Positions 1 through 14,609 of a stretch of DNA of 64,000 nucleotides are shown here, piece by piece. Origin of the DNA: Elusimicrobium minutum Pei191 (GTDB lineage: Bacteria > Elusimicrobiota > Elusimicrobia > Elusimicrobiales > Elusimicrobiaceae); NCBI RefSeq assembly GCF_000020145.1, contig NC_010644.1:1302001-1366000 (forward strand), given 5' to 3'. A program made the position numbers and the translations under genes. A model generated the notes under the pieces. The model did no database searches and had not been told where the DNA came from. It saw only the letters and a list, made by a program, of their open reading frames with translations. The stretch's first letter is position 1. The number at the start of each line of letters is the position of its first letter.

Positions 1-592
1 TTGAAGGCCCGCTAAAAGATTCTATAACGCTGTCAAACTCGCTGTTAATAAGTTCCAGCGTAGGTATTAGAGAACGGCCCCTTCCGCTGAAACTGTCTTT
101 CATTGAATAAACTTTTCCGCCCAATTTAACAGGTGTGTTTAGCCTGTCTAAAGAAATAAGAAAATTAGCTTTAATAGTAATAAAATCAGAAGTAAGTTTA
201 TCTTGCGTTACTGTGGACTGTGTATCAAAAAGTTCTTCTGTCCTTGTAAGAAACTCATAAATATTGGCAAGAGATGTCCTCCACACGTCGGACTCGGTAA
301 GAGTAACCTTGTCTTTTTCATTATAAACAACAGCGCGCTGGTCCATTAACGGAAGTTCTTCTATAAGCCATTTGGGAATTTTTATGGGAGCTTTTTCGCT
401 GCCGCCGCATTTTTCCGGCAAAATAAAAGATTTGCTTTCAACCGGAACTTTGGAGTCTAACATTTGGTAAATAATATAAATTCTTTCACGGGCGCATGTA
501 ATAAGACGTTTTTCTTCCGCGCTAAAAGGCTCCGCAAAAGAAAACGCTGTAATCGACGCCAAAACAAAAGTAAATATTATTTTTCTTATCAT
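1..592 (-). CDS. Secreted hypothetical protein, 3' end outside window
   Basis: The reading frame opens with ATG at 592-590, two bases after the TGA of the upstream ATPase gene, and stays open to the left edge: 197 codons are visible and the C-terminus is missing. Residues 1-20 form a signal peptide (MIRKIIFTFVLASITAFSFA), so the product is probably exported. The mature part contains two cysteines early on (ITCAR and EKCGG) and is otherwise helical and charged, with no domain I recognise. The 2-base spacing suggests translational coupling and membership of the Tad-like operon. TadB/TadC-type platform genes usually follow the ATPase, but this product has only the N-terminal hydrophobic segment in its visible part, so it is not one of them. 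The function is unknown. Confidence 0.8.
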   Translation of the reverse strand, partial: MIRKIIFTFVLASITAFSFAEPFSAEEKRLITCARERIYIIYQMLDSKVPVESKSFILPEKCGGSEKAPIKIPKWLIEELPLMDQRAVVYNEKDKVTLTESDVWRTSLANIYEFLTRTEELFDTQSTVTQDKLTSDFITIKANFLISLDRLNTPVKLGGKVYSMKDSFSGRGRSLIPTLELINSEFDSVIESFSGPS

Positions 593-594
593 GT

Positions 595-2823
595 TCAGTT
601 AACCTTTGGCGGCGCGGGAGTATTAGGCGCGGCAAAAACACTCTCGTCAATATTAATGCCTTTTGATTTAAAATCATCATAAAAAGACGGTTTGTTACCG
701 GTAGCGGCAAAATGACCTTGCACCTTACCTGTTTCTTCATCAATACTTGTTTGTCTGTATCTGAATAAATCGTTGGTGTGAATAATCCCGTCTTTTTGCC
801 CCAGGATTTCCGTAATATAAGTAACTTTTCTCGACCCGTCCGAAAATCTTGAAAGCTGGACTATCATATTAACCGCCGATGACACCATTTCCCTAATAGC
901 CCAAATAGGCAAATCGGCGCTGCCCATCATACACATGGCTTCCAAACGAGTAAGACCGTCTTTAGGGTTATTGGCGTGGATTGTGGCCAAAGAACCGTCG
1001 TGGCCGGTGTTCATAGCCTGCAACATATCCAACGCTTCTTTGCCGCGGCACTCGCCTACTACAATACGGTCAGGTCTCATACGCAGACAGTTTTTAACCA
1101 AATCCTGAATAGTAATTTCACCTTTTCCTTCAATGTTGGCCGGCCTGCTTTCCAAGGAAATCCAGTGTACCTGCTGCAAGCGTAATTCAGCGGTATCTTC
1201 CACGGTAATAATACGTTCGTCCGAAGGAATATAAGTGGAAAGAGCGTTTAAAAATGTGGTTTTACCGGTACCGGTACCGCCGGAAATAATAATATTTTTC
1301 CTGATTTTTACACACTCTTTTAAAAAGTCCATACACTCGCGGCTGATGGTGCCAAATCTGTAATAATCTTCCGGGCCAAAAGGTTTTTGCGAGAATCTTC
1401 TTATAGTAAGCGAAGGGCCCGAAACCGCCAATGGAGCTATAATTGCGTTAACACGCGACCCGTCTTTTAAACGCGCGTCAACTAAGGGCACAGATTCGTC
1501 TATACGTCTTCCCAACGGGGCAACAATTCTTTTAATAACCTGCACAACCTGGTCATTATTTCTGAATCTGTATTTTGTTAAAGTTAATTTACCCTTTTGT
1601 TCAATAAAAATCTTATCAAAAGAGTTAACCATAATTTCTGTAACGCTAGGGTCTCTCATCAAACCTTCTAAAGGCCCTAAACCCAAAATTTCATCTAAAA
1701 GTTCCGTGGCGAACCTTACGCGCTGCTCCCTTGAAAATTGCAAATTAGGCTGCTTTTGCAAAATTTCCTCAATAATTTCCCCCACTCTTTTTCTGGTTTG
1801 CTCGCTGTTAGACTCATCGCTTATAACAATTCTTTCAAGTTCCAAAGCTTTAATAACTTCTTTATGCACTCTTTGTTTAAGCTCATCCCAAAAAGACATT
1901 CTGGCTTCTTCTTCCGCAGTAGCCTCATGGTTAAATTTGGGAACCGCGCCGCCGCCCCCCGCGCCGCCGCCTACAAGAGCCGTCCATATCTCTCTGGAAG
2001 CTTCGGTAAAATCTTCATCGGAGACGCTGCTCATCCAATCTCTTATGGAAGGCGTTACCGTTTCAATCCTGTGAATCAAAATTCTAAGACCTTCGCTAAC
2101 CCAGTCTGAATGGGGGTTTGAAACCGCTTCAATCTCACGCCTGTTTGAGGCCGCCATAACGCTGTCGTCCCACGGTAAAAAAACTGAAACGTCTTTTCCC
2201 AAACTTTTAAAAAATCTGTCAACTTCCTCATGCGCTATAGAGCCGGGCATATCATACATATTACAAACAACGTCAAGACGTTCCATAGGAAAACTCATTT
2301 CCTTATATTCGTTAAACATCTTAACAGTTGTATTTAAATGGTTTCTTGTAGCCTGGGTTATCCAAAAAACTTTATCCGCGATGTCAAAGGCAAATGACTG
2401 CATGGGGAAAGATGAGTCTATATCTAAAAAAATGTCAAAAGTCTGGGAAAGGCGCGCTAAAATAGGCATTAATATCCTAGGGCTCATAGCAGACACCTGG
2501 CCTCTTGTATTGCCAAGCGGCATCACGCCCACGCCGTATTGTGACATCGATATTTTACCACGTAAAAGCCCGCCCGCAACAGCTATTGTGGTTGCGCCTA
2601 AGCTTTTAACTATATCCGCAGCAGTTACCGGGGTTTTAATATCTAAATAAAAAGTATGCTCTTGTCTTGCCAAAGGATCTAAAGGAACTATCAGTACCGG
2701 ACGTTTTTGCATGCCCGCCCACAAAACAGCTAAATTAAGAAGCAAAGTAGTCCTTCCGGCACCTTCTTTAGGCCCTGAAAAAGCGATTACTTTACCTTCT
2801 GTTCTGCCCGATAGTTCTGACAT
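595..2823 (-). CDS. Fused TadZ/CpaE-like and TadA/CpaF pilus assembly ATPase
   Basis: A 742-residue protein made of two parts that are normally separate. Residues 1 to about 265 resemble the ParA/MinD-like CpaE/TadZ localisation factor: the P-loop at residues 17-26 reads [10 protein letters not shown], with Arg in place of the usual Walker A Lys, and a LDIDSSFP strand stands at the position of the second acidic motif. From about residue 310 onward it is a CpaF/TadA secretion ATPase, with an N-terminal helical domain, [12 protein letters not shown], Walker [10 protein letters not shown] near residue 514-523, VEDTAEL, a Walker B region ending in VVGECRG near 587, and the [11 protein letters not shown] histidine box near 613. 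It should power assembly of the Flp-type fibre from the cytoplasmic face of the inner membrane. A glycine/alanine-rich linker (about 285-295) joins the halves. It starts 4 bases after the secretin gene. The GXGRT change suggests weak or no ATP hydrolysis in the first half (inference). Confidence 0.93.
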
Positions 2824-2827
2824 GACG

Positions 2828-3574
2828 TTACTCCACTATTTCTACTGTAACAAATAAGAACAATGATCTCTGTTCGTCTAAAGTATCTTTGTTTCTAAAC
2901 AAAAGCCCTATTAAAGGAAGTCTGCCCAAAAGCGGAATTCTGTCAACGGACACGTTACGGCTGCTACTCTTTAATCCGCCTATAACAAGCGTTTCGCCGC
3001 TGTGAAGTTCAACCTGCGTCTCAACCCTTCTTTTGTTAATTGACGGAACTGTTGTTGAGCCGACTGAAACCGTTCGGGAATAGTCCGGCGCGGAAACCTC
3101 TAAATTAACCTGAAGGTTAATAAGATTGCTTTGTTCTGGAATAATAGTAGGCATTACGTTTAATATAACGCCGTAATCTAACATGCTTGTGCCCACGCCC
3201 TGGTTGTTAACTTCGGGGAAAGGTATTTGTCCGCCTACGGAAATATTGGCGTTTGTACCTGTTCTAGTAACGATTTTGGGGTTAGAAAGTATCTGCGCTT
3301 TACCTTCGTTTTCCATAAGTCTTAACCTTGTTGTAAGAGCCGTCTTTCTTTCAAAAGAGCCTATTTCCAAAACACCCGGTATTTCTTTTTCCGCAAAATC
3401 AAATATATTGTACCAGGAAAACCCGATATTGCTGTTTATCGAACCGCTTATCTCAACGATATCGGCGCTGACAGACACAAGGTTTGTTTTGCGGGCATGA
3501 AGCGCGCCTGGCATTACAAGTAATGCTGCTAGAATTGTTAAACAGACTTTTGATGCAAATTTTTTATTTTTCAT
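2828..3574 (-). CDS. Short secretin (CpaC/RcpA/GspD-type) of the pilus system
   Basis: A 248-residue protein with a signal peptide (residues 1-27, ending near LHA). The rest matches the C-terminal secretin domain: the lip-region motif VGGQIPFPEV, VMPTI, the GETLVIGGL stretch, and the diagnostic C-terminal LLGRLPLIGLLF followed by a final beta strand. Family members of Tad systems (CpaC/RcpA) usually exceed 400 residues because of periplasmic N-domains and often a BON domain. Here only about 20-50 residues precede the secretin core, so the periplasmic part is almost absent. It would form the outer-membrane pore for the fibre. It lies between cpaB and the fused ATPase in the operon. The family call is firm; that it acts as a full pore by itself is inference. 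Confidence 0.88.
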   Translation of the reverse strand: MKNKKFASKVCLTILAALLVMPGALHARKTNLVSVSADIVEISGSINSNIGFSWYNIFDFAEKEIPGVLEIGSFERKTALTTRLRLMENEGKAQILSNPKIVTRTGTNANISVGGQIPFPEVNNQGVGTSMLDYGVILNVMPTIIPEQSNLINLQVNLEVSAPDYSRTVSVGSTTVPSINKRRVETQVELHSGETLVIGGLKSSSRNVSVDRIPLLGRLPLIGLLFRNKDTLDEQRSLFLFVTVEIVE

Positions 3575-3592: not shown

Positions 3593-4354
3593 TTATTTAA
3601 ACATTTCCGTAAGACTGGCTATTGCTATTGAATGTACGCCCTGGTCCTCACGTCTTCTTACTACAAGAGTTATTATGCCTTCTTCTTTAGCTAAGGCCAA
3701 ATACTGCGCGTCCCTGGGGTGTAATGCCAAGCTGATAGCGGAACTGTCGTTAAAAGCTGAAGCGCTTGCTTCTCTTTCTCTGGTAGCTCTGAGTTGGTTA
3801 GCGTCCATACCCTGCCCCAAATCATTACCCACGCCAAGCACTTTAATTCTTTGTAAAATTGTAGCGGTAATTTTTTCTTTCTGTCCGGTGTTCTTCATAT
3901 AAGCGTCGAAAGTTAAAAGCACGTCAACCCAATCGTCCGGCTTAATAAGGTTAGCCACGGAACTCGGAACATCGGTTAAAACAAAACCTCTCCATAAAGG
4001 AGATACCCTAGCGCTTAAACCCGCTTCAGGACTGAGTGAGGTTAAAGCCGCTTTGCTGACTTGGTTTCCTTTTGGAATAGCTATTCTTGTCACAAGGTTA
4101 TTTTCCAATTTTGTTATATCAGAATCTCTTGTAACTGTAAAAGCGTCCTTTTGCAAAAATTTATTAGGCATTTCAATAACGCCCAAATCACCTTTTGTAA
4201 TAACTTTTCTTTCAGGCAAATCCCTGATAGCGATAACAACTCTTTCAAGTTTGCTGTTTTCTTCAAACTTGCTCTGGTTTGAGAAAAGTATTATAAAGTA
4301 AACCACGGCCGCCAAAATAGCTATAACAAGCGGTAGAAATACACCTTTTTTCAT
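3593..4354 (-). CDS. cpaB: CpaB/RcpC-type Flp pilus assembly protein
   Basis: A 253-residue protein with one N-terminal membrane segment (about residues 5-24) and a SAF-type domain at about residues 35-105 (VVIAIRDLPERKVITKGDL, then a basic/hydrophobic RIAIPKGNQVS segment). This arrangement is characteristic of CpaB/RcpC, periplasmic partners of the Tad secretin. Residues 115-250 contain the RcpC-like second half (GFVLTDVPSSVANLIKPDDWVDVLLT). The gene ends 18 bases before the secretin gene and follows tadE in the same operon, which supports the role. Length is normal for the family. Confidence 0.9.
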   Translation of the reverse strand: MKKGVFLPLVIAILAAVVYFIILFSNQSKFEENSKLERVVIAIRDLPERKVITKGDLGVIEMPNKFLQKDAFTVTRDSDITKLENNLVTRIAIPKGNQVSKAALTSLSPEAGLSARVSPLWRGFVLTDVPSSVANLIKPDDWVDVLLTFDAYMKNTGQKEKITATILQRIKVLGVGNDLGQGMDANQLRATREREASASAFNDSSAISLALHPRDAQYLALAKEEGIITLVVRRREDQGVHSIAIASLTEMFK

Positions 4355-4406: not shown

Positions 4407-4874
4407 TTAGTTAAGAAGCGGCCTTTCAACCGGCATCCTCACTGTCGCTCTAAGCTCTCTCCTGCCCAATCTTTTGGGAGGATCGGCAAAAATAAAACTT
4501 GTGCCCGGAAATACCAAACGCACCGGGTAATATACTTCAACAATAACGTCCTCGTTAGGATGCGCAGTAGACTGCGGGTCCATACTTGTTCTGTCTAAAG
4601 ATACTTTAAAAGTAATCTTATCCTGTCTGCCCGCAAACATTAAAGCGCTTTGCTCTTTAAGTTTGCTTTCTATACGTCCTTTGTCCGTAGGGGCGCCCGG
4701 CCTTGTTACGCCGACCATGCCTCCTACCCTTGCCATTTCATACGCTGCGTGGTGGGCTATAATCGTGTGATAGGCGATATTACCAAGTTCAAGAACAAGA
4801 AAAAGCATGAACATAAAAATCGGTAAAATCATCAATAACTCAACTACAGTCTGCCCTCCACGCTTGCGTATCAT
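4407..4874 (-). CDS. TadE-like pseudopilin
   Basis: A 155-residue protein with a short positive N-terminus, the processing-type motif GGQTVVELLMILP with the conserved Glu, and one long hydrophobic helix (about residues 9-32), followed by a periplasmic domain. This is the TadE/TadG minor pseudopilin layout. It lies directly downstream of the Flp pilin gene (11-base gap) and upstream of cpaB. No good Shine-Dalgarno sequence precedes the ATG, so translation may depend on coupling to the pilin gene. Confidence 0.87.
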   Translation of the reverse strand: MIRKRGGQTVVELLMILPIFMFMLFLVLELGNIAYHTIIAHHAAYEMARVGGMVGVTRPGAPTDKGRIESKLKEQSALMFAGRQDKITFKVSLDRTSMDPQSTAHPNEDVIVEVYYPVRLVFPGTSFIFADPPKRLGRRELRATVRMPVERPLLN

Positions 4875-4885
4875 AATGGGGTAAA

Positions 4886-5083
4886 TTACATTTGGCCTAC
4901 GCCGCCAAGAATCTTCGTTTTGATGTTATCAAAAAGCTCAGGCATGAACGCTTTTACGGCAGCGCCGGCTATAAGAGCGACGCCAACGATTACGCCAAGC
5001 ATAAGTAAGTATTCAACTGTACCCTGACCTTTTTTGCTTTTAAGCTGGGCTAAAGCAATTTGCATTTTTACGAAATATTTCAT
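4886..5083 (-). CDS. flp: Flp/Fap-type pilin
   Basis: A 65-residue class III (Flp) prepilin. The basic leader ends at the cleavage-type sequence KKGQGTVEYLLMLG: the Gly-X4-Glu-Tyr core needed for prepilin peptidase processing and fibre assembly is present at residues 20-26. A hydrophobic helix and a short C-terminal tail (LFDNIKTKILGG) follow. Length is typical. A strong Shine-Dalgarno sequence, CGGAGGA, stands 6-7 bases before the ATG, in keeping with a highly expressed major subunit. It is flanked by a second tiny Flp-like gene and by tadE. Confidence 0.93.
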   Translation of the reverse strand: MKYFVKMQIALAQLKSKKGQGTVEYLLMLGVIVGVALIAGAAVKAFMPELFDNIKTKILGGVGQM

Positions 5084-5124: not shown

Positions 5125-5304
5125 CTAGTCTTTTGACTCATACACCGTAAGTATAACTTTTGCGCCCTGTTCAAACTGCAACGGCACTGTTTTTGAATAA
5201 AAAATATAAAAAGACAAAAACACAAAAAACAACGCCACAGTGGTAAAAATATATTCAATAGCGGTTTGCCCGCTTCTACTCTTAAGAGTTTTTAACAGCT
5301 TCAT
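5125..5304 (-). CDS. Second Flp-like pseudopilin, 59 residues
   Basis: A short frame read directly from the minus strand: ATG at 5304, TAG at 5127-5125. The product starts MKLLKTLKSRSGQTAIEYIF, i.e. a basic leader, then GQTAIEY, the same Gly-X4-Glu-Tyr prepilin peptidase signature as the neighbouring Flp pilin, a hydrophobic helix (about residues 15-37) and a short C-terminal segment. An AAAGGGG ribosome-binding site precedes the start by about 6 bases. It sits between the PorV-like gene and the Flp gene on the same strand. It is probably a minor pilin or a TadF-like pseudopilin. Such a short gene is easily missed. Confidence 0.82.
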   Translation of the reverse strand: MKLLKTLKSRSGQTAIEYIFTTVALFFVFLSFYIFYSKTVPLQFEQGAKVILTVYESKD

Positions 5305-5335: not shown

Positions 5336-6310
5336 TTAAAACTGTACGCCTACGGCAACGTTATACGTTGTGCCTAAGGCGCCGAACGGAGTCATGGCAA
5401 AATCAATTCTTGTGCCATAGCCGAAAACTTCATCACTGTATAAACCAAAACCGAAAGAAACTTTAGAAGTATTATCTAAACCGATTTTTTCCGTCCAGCT
5501 TTCATCACTTTTGCCGGTATCTTCGCGTGAGTAATAACCAGCGCGCAAGTCAAACCTGGCAACTTGCAGCAAATCTTCCGGTATATGTATTTCCAAACCT
5601 ACGCCATACTGTAATCTGTAGTCAGTATATTTAATTATTTCACCTACAACCGTCCAGTACTTTGTTTGGAAATGCGCGCCGCCACGCAAACCCGTGGGAA
5701 CTTCGTCAGAATCGCCTAAGTTAACAGCCGCAAAGCCTAAACCTACTTTATTGAAATCAAGTTTAGCGCCTACGTCAAAGGCTACGTTATTGTAATGTTC
5801 GCCGACGTTGTTTTCATTAATATACTTAAAAGTACCGCCAATTTGGAAAATATTATCAAAAAAACCGCGCGCTATAGAAGCCATGCCGACAAAGTTTCTA
5901 ACATCACCATCAACGCCTTCCGTCTGAGGAGTACCTTGGCTGTTTCTCCATTCAAAACCGTCCATGTCCATATAATTACCGGACAAAGCTATAATTGTTT
6001 TTCCCATAGGTTGTATATAAGATAATGTCCTTGCCTTATAGCCCTGCAGCCAGTCAAGATACGATAAGTGCACTTCTCTGCTGGTAGCCGTTGAAATACC
6101 GGCCGGGTTCCAAAAAAGTGAGTCGGCCCCGTCAGCTAAAGATACATACGCGTTACCCAAAGCCTGCGCCCTGGGGCTTCCGAATGGAAGTTTTAAAAAC
6201 GCACTTGCGCTTGTACCCGCACCTTTATATCCCCCCGATTGGGCATATAATCCCGAAGCACACAATACCGTTATTGCCAAAGTTACTAATATTTTAAAGT
6301 ATTTATTCAT
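5336..6310 (-). CDS. PorV/PorQ-family outer-membrane beta-barrel protein
   Basis: A 324-residue protein with a signal peptide (residues 1-23, ending LYAQ) and the typical start of the PorV/UPF0164 family: GAGTSASAFLKLPFGSPRAQALGNAYVSLADGADSLFWNPAG. The remainder alternates polar and hydrophobic residues as in a beta barrel and ends in an aromatic residue (VAVGVQF), the usual outer-membrane insertion signal. In Bacteroidota, PorV shuttles type IX secretion cargo, but related barrels occur in phyla without that system. It follows the 1397-residue surface protein by 13 bases, and that protein has a type IX-like C-terminus, so a cargo/barrel pair is plausible (inference). The family call is firm; the function is not. 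Confidence 0.85.
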   Translation of the reverse strand: MNKYFKILVTLAITVLCASGLYAQSGGYKGAGTSASAFLKLPFGSPRAQALGNAYVSLADGADSLFWNPAGISTATSREVHLSYLDWLQGYKARTLSYIQPMGKTIIALSGNYMDMDGFEWRNSQGTPQTEGVDGDVRNFVGMASIARGFFDNIFQIGGTFKYINENNVGEHYNNVAFDVGAKLDFNKVGLGFAAVNLGDSDEVPTGLRGGAHFQTKYWTVVGEIIKYTDYRLQYGVGLEIHIPEDLLQVARFDLRAGYYSREDTGKSDESWTEKIGLDNTSKVSFGFGLYSDEVFGYGTRIDFAMTPFGALGTTYNVAVGVQF

Positions 6311-6323
6311 ATTCTCATTTTAC

Positions 6324-9300
6324 CTATGGTATTAAGATTTTGACAACTCTTTGGCAATGTTCTTTGCCGCCGCCTGTCGCTTTAAATTCAACTAAACCGA
6401 AGTATACACCCCTGGCAACGGTTCTGCCATGGTCGTTTTTCTTATCCCATTCGCAGCGGAGTTCCGCGTTTCTGAGATTTGTAAAATCGCCCGTAGGTGC
6501 TGTGCCGCCCTGGGCGCCGTTATCGGGTTGTATGCGCAAGCTCGAGCCCATTGTGACAGTGTTATTATTATTATCAACACAAGAGTAGTTTTGGGTCCTT
6601 ATCTGGTCTCCCGCGATATTGTAAATCTTAACGGACATGTCGCCCGGCACGGGGATCTTTGTCACTTCAAAATATGCTTTATTGCTTCTCATGGGATTAG
6701 GGAAGAAGATTACGGATTTTTCCCAATCCGAGCAGACAAATTTACCGTCGCCTCTTGCAACCGTAAATTCCGTAGGCTGCATGTTAGCATATTTTTCCCA
6801 GTCGGCGATATTTCTTATATCATCGATAGTACCGTAAAAACTGTCCATATGGTTGGTATTACCCTGTGTTACGCTGACAAACCTGAAAGGATATAAACCG
6901 TCCGGAACGTCTTGCATAGCAAAGTCTTTACCGTCCCAAACATCTTCAATAGATAAAAGGTTGGGCCTCATACCCACAATGGCTTTAACAAGCAAGTCTT
7001 TTTCGCTTGATGAGCTTGACGTGGAACATGTTATTCTTCTGTTCGGCGCCGAACCTTCAATACTTGCGAATGTTCCGCTTGCCGTACAGAAAGAACTGGG
7101 CGCTAAAAGCTGCGCCGGGGTACAAACAGGGCTGCCCTGGGCCGGGTTTTCATAACAGCTTGAATTAACAAATGAGCCGTTGGCAACTTCACCCGTGGAA
7201 TAATCCTTAATATATGTACCGGGTTTAAAAATTTGTATACCCACTTTCATGGGAACCGAAGTCTGGTAAGCAAACAAGCCTACTTGCTGGCGTTCGGCTA
7301 TATCTTCTACATAAATGTCGAATATTTGGAATAAGTTGGCGTTAAGAAGCCTTGTTTCCGTTGCTTCGTAAGCGGAAGGACATACAAGTATTCTGTTTGG
7401 CGCTGTACCTGACACCTGCGCCGCGCTGCCGTCCGAACATAAGCCGGCTGGGGTTGCGAGTTCAGCAGTGGTACATCTTCTGTGCCCTATAATAGAGGGC
7501 GATTCGTAACAGTACGTCTCCGAACCCACAAAAGAAGGATTGCTTACTTCCAAAGGATAGCCGTTTGCTCTTAATCTTACGGTGTAAGCGCCGGAGGCGA
7601 CGTAGTTGCCAAAATTATCTTTACCGTCCCAGAATACTCTGGCCGCTTTATTACCTTCAAAAATATTTTGCAGGCCAAACTGGTTAAAACCGCTGTCCTT
7701 AATTGTGCGGCAAACAGGCTGTGAAACGTTACTCGCTATAGGATTGCCGTAACAGTCTTTGCCGTCTCTTGAAAGTATATCAATATCAACCTGAGCGGTG
7801 CGTGAAACCGTAAACTCTATAGTATAGGAAGGAACATTGTTAACTACTTCCGTAGAGTGATACAGTTTAGGCGTTGAGCCTGAAATTTTAATTGAGGCGG
7901 GCACAAAGTAAACTCCGCCGCGGGTAACGTTAATAAAGCCCGTTACACGGTCTGAAGAATATATGGAACCGTAACCGCCCACACTGCTGCCTGCCACAAA
8001 AGGATTCTGAGGGCTCATTGAAACAACAGGGAAAGCGCCGTCATAATAAATCGATCCGGGAGCGGTTGACGAGGCTATTATTATATAAGGATACTGCCCG
8101 TCGGCCACAGGACTCGCGTCGGCCTGATTGGTGCCGTCCCAAGTTTCTGTATTTGTCAAGCCTTCACCCGCTTTTACGCCTCTGTAAGATTTAAGCGGCA
8201 TATTGCCGTTATATTCACCCGTAACAAGGTTTAACCCCACGGGCGGCCATGTTGCCGTAATATCATTAGGAATACTTACGCTCTTATCATATATATATAT
8301 ATCAACATTTTGCGTTTTGGTAAGAGAGTATGATAATGTGGCAAAGGCATTTGTTTCACCCAAAAGCGGGGTGTCGGCAACGTCTACCACTCTAAAGATA
8401 TCAATGGGAAATAAAGCAGTTTGTGAGTAAACTTTATCCGGGAAAATAGGATCTCTGGTGGTAACTTCCAAAGAATATGTACCGGGTGAAGGATAGCGGC
8501 CGTAGTCGTCAAGGCCGTCCCACTTAAACTGATTCATTTGCTGGGCTACCTGTACCTGGTCTTTAATAATTGTTTTTACCACCACATTAGCGGTATTTTT
8601 AACAACAACCGTTGTAGGCGCTTCCCTTGAAATTGAATAGTTAAATTCAAACGGGTCTAAACCGTAAGCTATAGGGCTTGAACCCATTGTTGAGTATTTA
8701 ACAGGCTGTATTGTTATATCAACATTACCTCTGTCTATAGGTATAATACCGTTATGGTACATTCTTGTTTTGACAGCGTAGAAAACGTTGCCCGCGGCGT
8801 TTGTATAAGTATCGCCTGTATAAGGTATTTCAGCCCAGATAACGTACACATAGTTGCCATCAGGTAAATACTGGCCTAAATCATAAGCGCCGCCGCCTAT
8901 AGCGGTTGGGAAAGCACAGCCTCCCGCCATGCCACAGGTGCCGTCCCACTTGGTGTTGACAGTGTTTCTCTTACCCTTTTGCTCAATATTTTCATAAACT
9001 AAAACACCGCCGGTTACCGTGGGTTTTGTTCCCGCTGCTGTGGGGGCTACCGCGCCGGTTGTCGGATTGGTGTCAATATATACGTTTGATACTGTGGTGC
9101 CGGGAGTGTAAACCTGGAAGTATACTGTGGCTGCTTCGGTTAATAAATAGGAAATAGACGCATAAGCCGTGGACATTTGGTTTAAACCGGTAATAACACG
9201 GTCTGTTAATTTTAAAGGATCAAGGGTAAGGTCATAAGTTTTTTCTCCTGAAACGTCATTACCCCATTCGTCCGATTTTTGCGCTTTTATAGCAACCAAA

Positions 9301-10517
9301 TAGTTGCCGGGCGGCAGTAAGCGGCCCGTGTTATCCCTTCCGTCAAAAGGTTCTTCTTCCACAGTGGCGGTAACTTCAGGGTTGTTTGGCAATTGCCCGC
9401 CGTCGGGAGAGCCTTCACCCAGCCTGGGTTCATCATTAATAAGCGTTCTTCTTAAAGCGGTTGTGCTGCTTGTATCAACAGGAGTTGTTGCGCTTGAGTC
9501 AAAAATCCTCATCGTTACGTTAGCATCTTTAGACAAGCGGTATTTTATTTTATAAGGCTCGGTAGCAACGGCTTCAATGTTGCCAACAACGGTAGCTGTC
9601 GTACGTACAGAATGGACGTTTGTAACATCAATTAAAATAGGCTGCTGGTTTTGACCGGGATATACGGCTACATGGTCAATTTCAATAGGAGTTTCGGAAA
9701 TTGTTACAGGCGGCTGGAAAGTAGTTTGTATTCTTGCCCTTACGCCAAATGTTCCGTTTGTTTTGGCAAATTCGCTGTCAAAGTTATAAGCCCCGTCCCA
9801 CGCGGCGCAAAACCTAAGAACGTTGTCGGCGTCATTAATTGTTGTAGAAGCGGTGACCTGAGCGCCATGCGGGCAACTTGTTTGTAATGCCGGCGGAGTT
9901 CCCGCACCTGTGTCGCAATATATATTTGTACTGTTGGGGTCATTTATTTTATAACCGCCGCATCTGTAAACACCGCCCGTGGGATACAAATTTATGGTTC
10001 TGATAGCGGGGGTTGCTTTGTCATCTTCAGGGTTGCTTTGCTCTAAAAATTTAAAAATTTCAAACCTTACGGTTTGTATGGGATAAGACGGAGTAGGCGA
10101 CACATTGTCAGATATTGTTGAACATTGAACCGTAACGCAAAGCTGCAAACAATGGTTGGGATATCTGTACCCGGCGCTCCATAAAGGCGTGCCGGAAGCA
10201 GCGGAAGCTGAGGTCCAGTTAAACGGTTTGTCAAATTCAATAAGAGCGGAGTTTATGGTAGGGTCAATCACTCCTACAGGATTAATGGAATTTGTTGTGA
10301 TAAAACTAACTTCTTGCCCGGGGATTTGACTATCGCAATAAATAGGGCTTGTTAAACCGGTAGTAGGGTAGGCCGTAAAAACTTTACTTATTTGCGCTGT
10401 TTGAGCCGTCGCGGCCGCTGAAAATATTGTTGTAAATATTAAGGAAAAAATAATTTTTATGAGGATTTTTTTTCCGGAGAAAAGAGTTGAATAGTTGTTT
10501 TGTTTTTTACTGTTCAT
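6324..10517 (-). CDS. Giant secreted protein with seven FlgD-Ig-like repeats
   Basis: A 1397-residue protein, the first gene of the operon. A long basic N-terminus and signal peptide (to about residue 39, ATAQ) indicate export. Seven copies of a module built as a beta sandwich ending in WDG-x-D-x2-G-x4-GxY occur near residues 391, 523, 666, 793, 962, 1194 and 1356 (for example FWDGKDNFGNYVASGAY). This matches FlgD Ig-like domains. The last copy ends in ARGVYFGLVEFKATGGG and a basic beta strand, VVKILIP, very like type A sorting domains of type IX secretion cargo. Paired cysteines are frequent in residues 1000-1150, and several inserts contain SxCYENP/SxPxCTxAxL repeats. The probable place is the cell surface. 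It lies next to a PorV-like barrel. The specific function is unknown. Confidence 0.85.
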   Translation of the reverse strand: MNSKKQNNYSTLFSGKKILIKIIFSLIFTTIFSAAATAQTAQISKVFTAYPTTGLTSPIYCDSQIPGQEVSFITTNSINPVGVIDPTINSALIEFDKPFNWTSASAASGTPLWSAGYRYPNHCLQLCVTVQCSTISDNVSPTPSYPIQTVRFEIFKFLEQSNPEDDKATPAIRTINLYPTGGVYRCGGYKINDPNSTNIYCDTGAGTPPALQTSCPHGAQVTASTTINDADNVLRFCAAWDGAYNFDSEFAKTNGTFGVRARIQTTFQPPVTISETPIEIDHVAVYPGQNQQPILIDVTNVHSVRTTATVVGNIEAVATEPYKIKYRLSKDANVTMRIFDSSATTPVDTSSTTALRRTLINDEPRLGEGSPDGGQLPNNPEVTATVEEEPFDGRDNTGRLLPPGNYLVAIKAQKSDEWGNDVSGEKTYDLTLDPLKLTDRVITGLNQMSTAYASISYLLTEAATVYFQVYTPGTTVSNVYIDTNPTTGAVAPTAAGTKPTVTGGVLVYENIEQKGKRNTVNTKWDGTCGMAGGCAFPTAIGGGAYDLGQYLPDGNYVYVIWAEIPYTGDTYTNAAGNVFYAVKTRMYHNGIIPIDRGNVDITIQPVKYSTMGSSPIAYGLDPFEFNYSISREAPTTVVVKNTANVVVKTIIKDQVQVAQQMNQFKWDGLDDYGRYPSPGTYSLEVTTRDPIFPDKVYSQTALFPIDIFRVVDVADTPLLGETNAFATLSYSLTKTQNVDIYIYDKSVSIPNDITATWPPVGLNLVTGEYNGNMPLKSYRGVKAGEGLTNTETWDGTNQADASPVADGQYPYIIIASSTAPGSIYYDGAFPVVSMSPQNPFVAGSSVGGYGSIYSSDRVTGFINVTRGGVYFVPASIKISGSTPKLYHSTEVVNNVPSYTIEFTVSRTAQVDIDILSRDGKDCYGNPIASNVSQPVCRTIKDSGFNQFGLQNIFEGNKAARVFWDGKDNFGNYVASGAYTVRLRANGYPLEVSNPSFVGSETYCYESPSIIGHRRCTTAELATPAGLCSDGSAAQVSGTAPNRILVCPSAYEATETRLLNANLFQIFDIYVEDIAERQQVGLFAYQTSVPMKVGIQIFKPGTYIKDYSTGEVANGSFVNSSCYENPAQGSPVCTPAQLLAPSSFCTASGTFASIEGSAPNRRITCSTSSSSSEKDLLVKAIVGMRPNLLSIEDVWDGKDFAMQDVPDGLYPFRFVSVTQGNTNHMDSFYGTIDDIRNIADWEKYANMQPTEFTVARGDGKFVCSDWEKSVIFFPNPMRSNKAYFEVTKIPVPGDMSVKIYNIAGDQIRTQNYSCVDNNNNTVTMGSSLRIQPDNGAQGGTAPTGDFTNLRNAELRCEWDKKNDHGRTVARGVYFGLVEFKATGGGKEHCQRVVKILIP

Positions 10518-10879
10518 TTTGTTTTTACCGTAAACCTATTAATTTAAAATGCAGGCTTTAAGTGTAAGAAAATTTAAATACACCCGCAAAGCGCCTGTTA
10601 AAACTTTTACAATTTTACAAATCAATAAAATATTATAATCGCAAAATTACGCAAAAAACCAACCTCAGTTTTTGCATAACTATTTACACAATTAAACTTA
10701 CACTACTAAATTTTGACAACTTTTTAGTCACTTGTCAACAATAATTATGATAATTTATATATAAATAAGAACCCTTTGCTTTCGCCAAGCCCTTTTTTAA
10801 GCCCGCTTTATACTGTTAAAATTAATATCGCTTATTATAAAATTCTACTTTACCCCGCCCGATTCCGCTCTGCAAAAAA
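10518..10879. other. AT-rich intergenic region with the Tad-like operon promoter
   Basis: A 362-base gap without a convincing reading frame. It separates the diguanylate cyclase gene from the surface-protein gene, both on the minus strand. It contains two overlapping sigma70-type promoters (separate entry), leaving a leader of about 165 bases before the first gene. I see no strong terminator for the upstream gene and no recognisable riboswitch. Confidence 0.6.
10691..10738 (-). promoter_or_regulatory. Two overlapping sigma70-type promoters for the Tad-like operon
   Basis: Minus strand. One promoter has -35 TTGACA (10738-10733), a 17-base spacer and -10 CAAAAT (10715-10710). The other has -35 TTGTCA (10719-10714), a 17-base spacer and -10 TTTAAT (10696-10691). 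Both spacings are ideal. Together they would give two start sites about 19 bases apart, reading into the 1397-residue protein gene. Confidence 0.55.
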
Positions 10880-12370
10880 CTATTTACTTTCGGGAGGTAT
10901 TTCATTATAAAGAGCGTATGTGCCGCGTTCTTTGTTTTTAGCGTAATATAAAGCCCTGTCCGCTTTATTAAATAAATCAATAGCGTCTGAAGAATCCTGA
11001 GGGTACACTGCTATACCCTGGGTAATTGAAATGATATACTCCCGTCCGTTGGTGTACTGCTCCGGTATTTTGATTTTTTTAATACCCTCAGATAAACGTC
11101 TTGCGGTATACTTAGCTTCCTGCCCGCTTGTGCGCGGAAGCATAATCATGATTTCATCGCCGCCGTAGCGGCAGGGAAAGTCAGTCTGTCTTAAACTTTT
11201 TAATATAGTATCGCTTACGGATTTTAAAACAATATCGCCCGTACTGTGGCCGAAAGTATCGTTAATTGTTTTAAAATGGTCAATATCTAAAATAATAACC
11301 GACATTGTAAGCTCAAACCGCTCGGAGCGGTAAATTTCCTCTATCAGTTTTTCATTAAAATACCTTCTTACGGGCAGTTTGGTAAGTTCGTCATAATTAT
11401 AAAGGTCCTGCACGCGCTCGAACAAAACTGCGTTATCAACCGCCAGCGCGATTTGGGAGGAAAACTGTTTAACATGCAAAAAATCCAAATACGTAATATC
11501 GCGGCGGGAAAGAAGATTGTCAAAAATTAAAATACCCACCCTTTTCCCCTGCACATTAAGCGGCAGGTTAAGTACGCGCGAGCTGAAAGACTCTTCCATG
11601 TTTGAAACGTTTTTTATTTCGGCGGGGTCAATATTACCGTCCCTTCTGGAAACATTGCCCGCTATATCAGTGCTTAAAGAGGCGCGTATGTTTGCACCTT
11701 CATAATCAAACAAATACATTCTTACACGGTCAAATTTAAAAGTTTTTTGCACGCCGCGCAAAATAACTTCAATAGCGTCGTTAAAACGCATGGAAGAAGC
11801 AAACACCGCGGCTAAATCATTTAACGTGGTGGCAAGCCTAAGGCGTTCTGAGTTGTCCTGATCTATTTCCGTGTTAATCATATTATGGGAAATTTCGCTG
11901 ACAAGCCCCTTGATTAACCTGATTTCTTTTTCACTAAATTTTTTAGATTTGTTAAAACGTTCAAGCCTTAACACGCCAAACTTTTCCTGCATGGCGGAGT
12001 TGCCGCCGTTTTTACCGTAAGCGGCGGGCGCCTTCCATTGTAAAAAAACATAAATCGCGGGGTAGCTTAAATCACTTTTTAAGGAATACCCTTTCGCTAG
12101 AAGATCAGCCATGATTTCCTGCTTGCCTGTTGAGGAAATAGTTTCCTGCATGTCCATGCAGTAGCCGTCTTTGCAAAGCATGGTAAGTGAAAGAAGCTCG
12201 CGGTTTTTTTCCCAATTAAAAAAGTAAATACGGTCCAGCCCCAAAATTTTTTGCATAAAAGGCAAAGCCTGGTTTAACAAGGCGCTTGTATTTTGGAAAG
12301 TCTGGTTCAGCCTTTTATGAAAATGGTAAAGCTGCAATTTGGGCCTGTGCCTGTCATTAAAACCGAACAT
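10880..12370 (-). CDS. Diguanylate cyclase with GAF-type sensor domains
   Basis: A 496-residue cytoplasmic protein. Residues 335-490 are a GGDEF domain (DELTKLPVRRYFNEKL, ILDIDHFKTINDTFGHSTGD, RYGGDEIMIMLP, ITQGIAVYP), which makes cyclic di-GMP from two GTP. The active-site loop reads GGDEI rather than GGDEF; the catalytic Asp-Glu pair is intact. An RxxD product-inhibition site (RQTD) lies five residues before it, near residue 395. Residues 185-325 look like a GAF domain, and residues 25-170 like a more divergent GAF-like sensor. There is no membrane segment. It starts 2 bases after the solute-binding-like gene, so ligand sensing and cyclic di-GMP output may be linked (inference). A surface-fibre operon lies downstream on the same strand. 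Confidence 0.9.
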   Translation of the reverse strand: MFGFNDRHRPKLQLYHFHKRLNQTFQNTSALLNQALPFMQKILGLDRIYFFNWEKNRELLSLTMLCKDGYCMDMQETISSTGKQEIMADLLAKGYSLKSDLSYPAIYVFLQWKAPAAYGKNGGNSAMQEKFGVLRLERFNKSKKFSEKEIRLIKGLVSEISHNMINTEIDQDNSERLRLATTLNDLAAVFASSMRFNDAIEVILRGVQKTFKFDRVRMYLFDYEGANIRASLSTDIAGNVSRRDGNIDPAEIKNVSNMEESFSSRVLNLPLNVQGKRVGILIFDNLLSRRDITYLDFLHVKQFSSQIALAVDNAVLFERVQDLYNYDELTKLPVRRYFNEKLIEEIYRSERFELTMSVIILDIDHFKTINDTFGHSTGDIVLKSVSDTILKSLRQTDFPCRYGGDEIMIMLPRTSGQEAKYTARRLSEGIKKIKIPEQYTNGREYIISITQGIAVYPQDSSDAIDLFNKADRALYYAKNKERGTYALYNEIPPESK

Positions 12371-12372
12371 AA

Positions 12373-13581
12373 CTAACCCCCGTACAGATTAAGAAGATAA
12401 TCCGCCTCTTTGGATATGGGAACAAGCTCACGTTCAAGAAATTCTCTGTCGTAACGCCCGTTAATAATTTCCATAGAAACCTTTTCAAGCACCTCATTAA
12501 TCATTTTTGTAGCGCTGGCGGCAACCATGTTTGTGGAAATTGTTCTTGCCGTAGCAATAATTTTTGCGTATATAACCATACGCTTGGGGGAGGAGAAAAT
12601 AAATTCATCAAAAGTGTCTTCAACCGCCGGGAAAGCTTCCATAAGCGAGGCGTATTTAAGCTGCGCCTCACGCGTCATAAGCCAGTTTAAAAATTTAAGG
12701 GCCTCTTCTTTTTTAGAGCTTGATTTTGTTATAACCAAATTGATGCCTGATAAAAAGGACACGCTTTCTTTACCCGTGGCGGGAACATTTAAAGTGTTAA
12801 TTTGAAAAGGGGTTTTTGTAGCCTCAAACATGCTTAACCCCTGCCGCCTTGTTATAAACAAACTTGCCCTTCCCGATACCATAGTTCCTACAGATCCGCG
12901 CTCCCTAAGTACGGGCAGATACCCGCGGTCGGCCAGTTTAATATAATCTTCAAGCCCGTCTATAAAAGCGGGTTCCGTAAAATTGCAGCGTGAGCCGTCA
13001 TGCGAAAACAAGTCCGAACCTCTGCCCCAAATGCAAGGTAAAATACTTCTTACGGAAAGGTTTCCCCTCCAGTCGCTGTTTTGAATAGGGTAATAGTTGG
13101 GATCATGCGCGAACTCCGTTTTTAACCTGGCGCAAATATCAAGCATACCCTGCCAGGTGCCCAAGTCCGCCTCAGGGTTTTTGCTTACAGTAGCCAAATG
13201 GTCCGCGCGGTAGTGAAGCGCCATAACATCAAGCCACCAAGGCAAAGAATAAATATCTTTTGTGCCCTGCTTATAGCAATGAGAGACAAGCGGGGCCAAA
13301 TATTTATTTACAGTTAAAGAAGGTTCCAGTTCCGAAAGATTTTCTATTAAATCGGACGCGGTTAAAACAGGCGTCCATGTATGCGGGATTTCAATAATAT
13401 CTGGCAACTGTCCGGGATTTTTTTCAAACCTCAGTAAAAAAAGTTTATTCCACAAATTATGACGCGTAATATACTCAACCTTAATATTAATGCCGGGGTT
13501 GGCTTTTTTAAAAGGCAGTAAAAAGTTTTCAAAATCCTTTTTTGTGTTGGAGCCTGAGTCTGGCATCATCCAAAATAACAT
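12373..13581 (-). CDS. Family 1 solute-binding-protein-like, without signal peptide
   Basis: A 402-residue protein with the fold signature of MalE-type extracellular solute-binding proteins: FLLPFKKANPGINIKVEYI, LPDIIEIPHTW, the DIYSLPWW segment, FLSGINLVITKSSSKKEEALKFLNWL and a C-terminal helical lobe. The start ATG at 13581 overlaps the TAA of tsaD (TAATG), and an in-frame stop lies 6 codons upstream, so no signal peptide can be added. The N-terminus (MLFWMMPDSGSN) begins directly at the first beta strand of the mature fold. No permease or ATPase gene is near. It precedes a diguanylate cyclase by 2 bases, so it may be an intracellular ligand sensor instead of a transporter part (inference). 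Confidence 0.78.
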   Translation of the reverse strand: MLFWMMPDSGSNTKKDFENFLLPFKKANPGINIKVEYITRHNLWNKLFLLRFEKNPGQLPDIIEIPHTWTPVLTASDLIENLSELEPSLTVNKYLAPLVSHCYKQGTKDIYSLPWWLDVMALHYRADHLATVSKNPEADLGTWQGMLDICARLKTEFAHDPNYYPIQNSDWRGNLSVRSILPCIWGRGSDLFSHDGSRCNFTEPAFIDGLEDYIKLADRGYLPVLRERGSVGTMVSGRASLFITRRQGLSMFEATKTPFQINTLNVPATGKESVSFLSGINLVITKSSSKKEEALKFLNWLMTREAQLKYASLMEAFPAVEDTFDEFIFSSPKRMVIYAKIIATARTISTNMVAASATKMINEVLEKVSMEIINGRYDREFLERELVPISKEADYLLNLYGG

Positions 13582-14609
13582 TATTTCCCCCAGTTTTTAA
13601 TTCTCATGTTAGGGTTGATTCTAATATTAGCGTTAAACTTACCGGCAAACATAAATTTTTTATATCCGGCAAGGGCAATCATGGCGCCGTTATCGGAAGA
13701 GAGCGCCCTCGGTACGAAAGAAACATCCACTCCTTCCTTCTGACCGCGTTTTACCATGCTTTCTTTTAAAAGTTCATTAGCCGCGACGCCGCCGCCGACA
13801 GCCACATTTTTAACTTTATATTTTTTTACAGCCTGGAAAGTTTTAGCCACAAGAGTTTCCACCATCGCCGCCTGGAAAGAAGCGCACACATCTTCTTTTT
13901 TTATATCTTTATGGTCGCGCAGGTAATAGCTTACAGCTGTTTTAATACCGCTGAAAGAAAATTCAAAAGTTCCCTTCATCATCGGTCTTGGGAATTTAAT
14001 AGCCTCTGGGTTTCCTTTTAAAGCCTCTTTAGCGACAACAGGCCCGCCCGGATAACCAAGCCCCAAAAGTTTAGCCACTTTGTCAAAAGCTTCGCCCGCA
14101 GCGTCGTCCCTTGTGCGTCCCAGCATTTTATAATCGCCGTAATTTTTTACGTACCAAAGTTCGGTATGTCCGCCGGAAACTATTAAAGCTATTAAAGGAA
14201 ATTTAAGTTGTTTATCGGCTGCTATTTTCCCTTCTTTAGCGTCAAATTCACAGGCAAACAAATGTCCTTCCAAATGGTTTACTCCTATTATAGGAACATT
14301 TTTTAAAGCGGACACTGCTTCCGCAGCTACTCTGCCTACCATAAGACCGCCGGGCAAACCGGGGCCGCTTGCGAAAGCTACTAAATCTATTTTATGGTTA
14401 CCAAGCGCTTCTTTTACCACTTCTGCCACTTTAACCGCATGGGCGCGGCTGGCGAGTTCGGGCACTACGCCGCAATATTTTTTATGTATATCGATTTGGG
14501 TGTGCACCACGTTAGAAACTAAATCCCGCCCGCTTTTAAGTATGGCGGCGGAAGTTTCGTCACATGTGGTTTCTATACCTAAAATTGTTATATCTTTATC
14601 GGTTTTCAT
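13581..14609 (-). CDS. tsaD: tRNA N6-threonylcarbamoyladenosine transferase TsaD
   Basis: A 342-residue protein of normal length. It shows the family N-terminus (ILGIETTCDETSAAIL), the metal-binding HAVKVAEV-type helix and NHLEGH motif, FPLIALIVSGGHTELW, and the C-terminal LSSDNGAMIALAGY segment. With TsaB, TsaE and TsaC it installs t6A at position 37 of ANN-decoding tRNAs. The stop overlaps the start of the solute-binding-like gene. Its AAGGGG Shine-Dalgarno sequence lies inside the hairpin at 14620-14655, so initiation may be sensitive to that structure. Confidence 0.96.
   Translation of the reverse strand: MKTDKDITILGIETTCDETSAAILKSGRDLVSNVVHTQIDIHKKYCGVVPELASRAHAVKVAEVVKEALGNHKIDLVAFASGPGLPGGLMVGRVAAEAVSALKNVPIIGVNHLEGHLFACEFDAKEGKIAADKQLKFPLIALIVSGGHTELWYVKNYGDYKMLGRTRDDAAGEAFDKVAKLLGLGYPGGPVVAKEALKGNPEAIKFPRPMMKGTFEFSFSGIKTAVSYYLRDHKDIKKEDVCASFQAAMVETLVAKTFQAVKKYKVKNVAVGGGVAANELLKESMVKRGQKEGVDVSFVPRALSSDNGAMIALAGYKKFMFAGKFNANIRINPNMRIKNWGK

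Follow-up and report, generated by a model that had tools for sequence, protein, structure and literature searches.

The 64,000-nucleotide window that we analysed (positions 1,302,001 to 1,366,000 of contig NC_010644.1, forward strand, in the single-contig, 1,643,562-base genome of Elusimicrobium minutum Pei191) carries the gene of a giant secreted protein and, immediately behind it, that of an outer-membrane barrel of the PorV family, and this pair heads a run of Tad pilus genes. We found that the giant-PorV pair is linked to Tad genes across the class Elusimicrobia, and that the same genome encodes a homologue of SprA, the translocon of the type IX secretion system (T9SS). The reading we favour, at a probability of roughly 0.55, is a reduced, PorU-less type IX-like pathway in which SprA and a dedicated PorV shuttle would export one clear cargo that is wired into the Tad operon.

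Read leftwards along the minus strand, starting at position 10517, the genes are those of the giant protein, the PorV-like barrel, two Flp pilins, TadE, CpaB, secretin, TadZ-TadA, TadB, TadC, a TPR protein and a HAMP-like protein (Table 1). The gaps in this run are short, the longest being the 362 bases upstream of the giant gene, and the open reading frames (ORFs) of the giant protein and the barrel are 13 bases apart (6311-6323). A preliminary description had placed a PorV-family barrel 13 bases after a 1397-residue protein, in one run with Flp pilins, TadE, CpaB, secretin and motor; its ORF coordinates proved exact, and common strand, short gaps and family matches bear out the shared run. 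The Tad set is complete for Flp, TadA, TadB/TadC, CpaB, secretin, TadZ and TadE, with Flp, TadB and TadC named by sequence and position. The whole run from the giant gene into the Tad genes is probably one transcript; the upstream gap contains a site (10738-10710) that is among the best promoter-like ones, as judged by consensus match only.

This arrangement recurs well beyond E. minutum. Loci with a high-scoring PorV orthologue number 32 (L062-L093) and come from families f1, f2, f5, f7 and f8 of the class Elusimicrobia. As far as the contigs reach, the order giant-PorV-Flp-Flp-TadE-CpaB-secretin-TadZA-TadB-TadC-TPR-HAMP is kept in 32/32, with minor local departures such as one locus with a pilin missed by the search, and in several of these loci the two frames of the pair share four bases. 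Named Elusimicrobia contigs that were obtained independently (L102, L103, L105-L107) have the same gene order, and this twofold recurrence puts the arrangement beyond chance. For comparison, Tad loci were gathered by scanning contigs with a TadZA profile, and the PorV-giant pair was present in none of the 74 Tad loci from other phyla, with a weak domain match in one Bacillota locus. Tad systems as such have already been reported in Elusimicrobia (PMC6668835).

The giant protein is built from modules of the FlgD immunoglobulin-like (Ig) type, whose pattern occurs at residues 391, 524, 666, 963 and 1357, and the last module is the only one within the protein with a PNP start. In an alignment of 31 family members this last module ends at the C-terminus throughout. 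NCBIfam assigns it to the T9SS type A sorting domain TIGR04183 in 29 of the 31, to the PorZ C-terminal region in 25, to the PorU C-terminal region in 20 and to FlgD in 6, so that type A models are chiefly matched and type B models less; the corresponding Pfam counts are 26 for CHU_C, 21 for Por_Secre_tail and 15 for FlgD_ig, although a Pfam Por_Secre_tail search of the E. minutum genome returned no match. The preliminary description had likened the last module to a type IX sorting domain, and the two features involved, the ARGVYF motif and a basic last strand (VVKILIP), both occur here and are conserved across the family. The module also differs from the internal FlgD-type modules, which speaks against an ordinary FlgD-Ig C-terminus. 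Judged by sequence, the end of the giant protein resembles a type A sorting domain. Tandem giant genes with near-identical C-termini were seen in three other loci (L064:1465-9911, L072:1567-9377 and L105), and many contigs of relatives break off inside the giant gene or shortly before it, which suggests repeated or variable sequence there. In one locus (L086:9568-13692) giant protein and PorV share a single frame of 1374 residues; we did not count this as evidence of a fusion, as the sorting-domain end is replaced and the PorV signal peptide is kept at the joint, which looks like a frameshift.

The barrel matches the PorV/PorQ family NF033709 over its full length (E 3.5e-24; 86 bits against a curated cut-off of 90) and the PorQ model at E 1.4e-13; with the PorV equivalog model it reaches 19 bits (cut-off 250). 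All 29 aligned orthologues and paralogues of the barrel match both NF033709 and PorQ, whereas the PorP/SprF family is not matched by the barrel, for which NCBIfam returns only PorV/PorQ families. An AlphaFold2 model from a six-sequence input has 14 strands at moderate confidence, with a mean predicted local distance difference test (pLDDT) score of 64.4. In a Foldseek search with this model the top match was FadL, and the next two were PorV chains from the solved type 9 translocon (17-18% identity). PorV itself is a FadL-like barrel; the fold alone is thus not decisive, and it is the sequence families that place the barrel in PorV/PorQ. Other matches to the PorV family in the genome were considered as shuttles and rejected, since two of them match FadL better (L022 and L024) and the third is weak.

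We next consider the translocon. The window holds no PorU, SprA or GldKLMN gene, as the preliminary description had observed, and of these genes, which it proposed to seek in the rest of the genome, a full-length SprA/Sov homologue was found: a single open frame of 1752 residues at genome positions 112,984-118,089 (L031:9981-15239), about 1.19 Mb from the Tad-linked pair. A complete lack of type IX core genes is thereby excluded. The Pfam model SprA_N had suggested otherwise, being positive in 29 of 150 Elusimicrobiota genomes, E. minutum not among them. That apparent absence was overturned by a phylum profile made from 13 proteins of SprA_N-positive genomes, with the E. minutum protein left out, which detects SprA in 132 of the 150 genomes, scores the E. 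minutum protein at 1358 bits and recovers the solved SprA of Flavobacterium johnsoniae at E 3.8e-33; most SprA-like genes of the phylum escape the Pfam model. Against TIGR04189 (SprA/Sov) the E. minutum protein scores 114 bits (E 3.3e-33; curated cut-off 200). Its gene neighbours, named by reading their sequences, are comF-like and lptF/lptG-like. In one genome of genus g24 (G064, L019:643-11815) the Tad genes adjoin SprA, with only a comF-like gene between them.

Cargo-shuttle pairs are not confined to the Tad loci. PorV-like proteins occur in 121 of the 150 genomes; Elusimicrobiaceae mostly have one, other families of the class more. A sorting-domain protein lies directly beside PorV in 6 of 8 non-Tad loci of PorV paralogues; in two loci, L016 (near SprA) and L095, the neighbouring domain scores above the curated TIGR04183 cut-off. 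The sorting domain also tends to occur together with SprA. In family f10 it is found in 29/34 SprA-positive and 4/18 SprA-negative genomes (Fisher p 1.2e-5), and in genus g24 in 10/12 genomes with an intact SprA and 3/15 in which SprA is missing or a remnant (p 0.002), both tests treating genomes as independent. SprA is present in each of the 66 sampled genomes that have a PorV orthologue of the Tad type. Within Elusimicrobiaceae, the domain is matched exactly once in 31 of 41 genomes of genera g1-g4; in E. minutum the match is the giant protein. The E. minutum genome keeps one clear cargo-PorV pair, the Tad-linked one. A secreted protein of 782 residues (L182:3166-5514; genome 895,166-897,514) has a sub-cut-off C-terminal sorting-domain match of 18.6 bits and no PorV neighbour, and is a possible second cargo. 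A protein of 1872 residues with a weak FlgD_ig match was rejected as cargo, being an alpha-2-macroglobulin.

In F. johnsoniae, PorV docks at a side opening of SprA and departs with the cargo (PMC10994853). By analogy, the giant protein of E. minutum would enter the periplasm by its signal peptide, the PorV-like barrel would take the C-terminal sorting-type domain at the side opening of SprA, and the giant protein would be drawn through the SprA channel to the cell surface. Neither PorU (sought as Peptidase_C25) nor an M6 protease with a sorting-type domain was found in the E. minutum genome to cut the domain; it may therefore stay in place, and the barrel may go on holding the giant protein. 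Energy would presumably come from some source other than GldLM. As the pair heads the Tad operon, production of the surface protein would coincide with that of the Flp pilus, alongside which it would probably act as an adhesin; for this cooperation, the evidence is the conserved linkage. M6-family metalloproteases with a sorting-type C-terminus do occur near SprA in about 20 other genomes (L008, L010, L013, L016, L018 and others), often beside a PorV-like gene, and may either be conserved cargo or take the place of PorU.

Several results weigh against this reading. The window copy of the sorting domain reaches 18.2 bits against TIGR04183, below the cut-off of 23, and weak TIGR04183 matches turn up in T9SS-free genomes too; with scores of this kind, the domain match by itself is suggestive. 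The model of the domain (pLDDT 78.5) is a beta-sandwich with generic fold matches, among which PorU ranks 8th and FlgD 36th, and the comparison does not separate PorU-type from other Ig-like domains. The window barrel likewise scores under the curated cut-offs, with FadL as its first fold match. The peptidase family of PorU is present in just 1 of the 150 Elusimicrobiota genomes; in a search that lacked a working positive control, GldM was detected in none of the 150, and GldL gave weak sub-cut-off matches, none of them in E. minutum. Moreover, since nearly all Elusimicrobiota have SprA, finding it alongside the Tad-linked pair adds no independent support, and a joint loss of SprA and the domain could result from genome reduction.

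These points leave room for other explanations. One would make the pair an ordinary FadL-type porin beside a surface protein of FlgD/Ig repeats, with no relation to type IX secretion. FlgD_ig is indeed the best and a repeated Pfam match in the giant protein, and the fold results just mentioned suit such a view, but the FlgD_ig matches are internal, most orthologues have a last module that matches T9SS families, the genome contains a real SprA, and NCBIfam assigns the barrel to PorV/PorQ while two other barrels of the genome take the FadL matches; we regard this explanation as very improbable. The pair could instead belong to the Tad machine, as an outer-membrane component peculiar to this lineage that works without SprA and supports or gates an unusually short secretin. 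The restriction of the pair to Elusimicrobia, where secretins measure ~240-280 residues compared with ~410-590 in most other phyla, would fit this idea. In a mirror comparison of 23 loci (descriptive, with no significance test, and with the TadZA/TadC distance removed), PorV distances also track those of CpaB and secretin (partial correlation 0.36-0.38). Sorting-domain distances, however, follow PorV (0.39) and not TadE, CpaB or secretin (0.05-0.10), the domain resembles T9SS sorting domains in a genome that has SprA, and similar pairs are found without Tad genes, which makes a pure Tad role doubtful. The correlations fit a cargo-shuttle pair while leaving room for some role of the barrel in the Tad machine.

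Two further explanations accept export through SprA and differ from ours in what they make of the pilus. In one, SprA serves to export and display the pair, which then works independently of the pilus, and the operon does no more than couple the expression of two surface structures that the cell needs in the same circumstances. Both the similar cargo-PorV pairs outside Tad loci and the great distance of SprA from the Tad-linked pair speak for it, yet a linkage that five families retain, each time with the pair at the operon head, exceeds what loose co-expression would need, and we consider it unlikely, if deserving of real weight. The other takes up the suggestion of the preliminary description that type IX-like cargo logic and a Tad-type machine form one combined surface-export system: the SprA-exported giant protein, held by the PorV barrel, would anchor, gate or tip the Flp pilus at the short secretin, drawing on an energy source other than GldLM and dispensing with PorU. 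The type IX-like cargo logic, the presence of SprA and the class-wide Tad linkage were upheld; a single combined machine found no support beyond linkage, as SprA lies so far away, other pairs sit outside Tad loci and linkage is all that joins the giant protein to the Tad genes. A physically combined machine thus seems improbable. A cargo and shuttle that are exported by SprA and co-expressed with the Tad pilus would be the simpler reading.

Table 1. Features of the giant-PorV-Tad run in the window (all coordinates are window positions).
Feature	Coordinates	Strand	Basis
Promoter-like site, TTGACA + 17 nt + CAAAAT	10710..10738	-	Consensus match only; inside the 362-base gap before the giant gene
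Giant secreted protein, 1397 residues, chain of FlgD-type Ig-like modules, presumed cargo	6324..10517	-	ORF; internal modules exceed the cut-off of FlgD_ig PF13860; an orthologue in each of the 32 block loci as far as the contig extends
C-terminal sorting-type domain of the giant protein, residues 1255-1397	6327..6755	-	31-member alignment; NCBIfam matches; beta-sandwich model
PorV/PorQ-family outer-membrane barrel, 324 residues, presumed dedicated shuttle	5336..6310	-	NF033709 match; 14-strand model; fold like FadL and type 9 translocon PorV
Flp-like pilin 1	5125..5304	-	Sequence and position; orthologues in block loci
Flp-like pilin 2	4886..5083	-	Sequence and position; orthologues in block loci
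TadE-like pseudopilin	4407..4874	-	PF07811 E 2.8e-10, above cut-off
CpaB/RcpC	3593..4354	-	TIGR03177 E 1.1e-32, above cut-off
Short secretin, 248 residues, nearly secretin core only	2828..3574	-	PF00263 E 1.1e-42, residues 87-248
TadZ-TadA fusion (ParA/MinD-like part + pilus ATPase)	595..2823	-	PF00437 E 3.7e-63, above cut-off; TIGR03819 E 1.8e-98, below cut-off; CbiA/ParA-type N-terminus
TadB start; gene runs past the left window edge	2..592	-	Sequence and position; followed by TadC, TPR and HAMP-like genes; orthologous order in relatives

The Tad genes themselves have some unusual traits. The near-core-only secretin is shared by the window and the 32 loci, TadZ is fused to TadA, and TadB measures ~500-540 residues (L001:14985-16463) compared with roughly 300 in other phyla. 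Upstream of the operon, at window positions 10880-14609, lie genes for a GGDEF-type protein, a substrate-binding-like protein and TsaD, and their position is kept in several relatives.

Parts of type IX secretion are annotated also in related phyla of the Fibrobacterota-Chlorobiota-Bacteroidota (FCB) group. The system has nevertheless been described as Bacteroidota-specific (PMC7463736, PMC8564354, PMC5445135), and a literature search of limited coverage and wording found no paper tying SprA to Elusimicrobia. A stripped-down type IX-like secretion seems to exist in a phylum other than Bacteroidota: an SprA-like translocon in most Elusimicrobiota, PorV-like shuttles beside cargo and almost no PorU point to a simpler system, and raise the question of what drives and what ends transport where a sortase and a known motor are lacking. 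Genomes that, like that of E. minutum, have a single SprA, a single Tad-type PorV and a single clear cargo would represent the system in a minimal natural form. That a cargo is wired into the Tad operon in a conserved way offers a testable link between two surface systems so far studied apart, and, were the combined machine real, type IX-like secretion and the Tad machine would work as a single surface apparatus.

The locus can be compared with four known systems. The barrel is of the same 14-strand type as the FadL/OmpP1 transporters, and differs from them in its sequence families. Like other Tad loci, the operon holds Flp pilins, TadE, CpaB, secretin, TadZ, TadA, TadB, TadC and a TPR protein in one run; unlike them, it has the giant-PorV pair at its head, together with the short secretin, the TadZ-TadA fusion and the long TadB. 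In Bacteroidota, including F. johnsoniae, type B cargo depends on a barrel whose gene comes immediately after that of the cargo, and a single PorV is shared by type A cargo (PMC12618676). The E. minutum pair follows the layout of sprB-sprF, the type B case of F. johnsoniae, in that a dedicated outer-membrane barrel is encoded right after a large surface protein, but this barrel is PorV/PorQ and not PorP/SprF, and in NCBIfam the domain is nearer type A than type B. It departs from the Bacteroidota T9SS in its phylum, in the lack of a detected PorU, GldL or GldM (the last two in the weak search noted above), in a PorV-like barrel that stands beside its cargo instead of serving all type A cargo, and in a cargo gene placed inside a Tad operon. 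With that system E. minutum nonetheless shares an SprA homologue, a PorV-family barrel, a type A-like C-terminal beta-sandwich and a cargo signal peptide.
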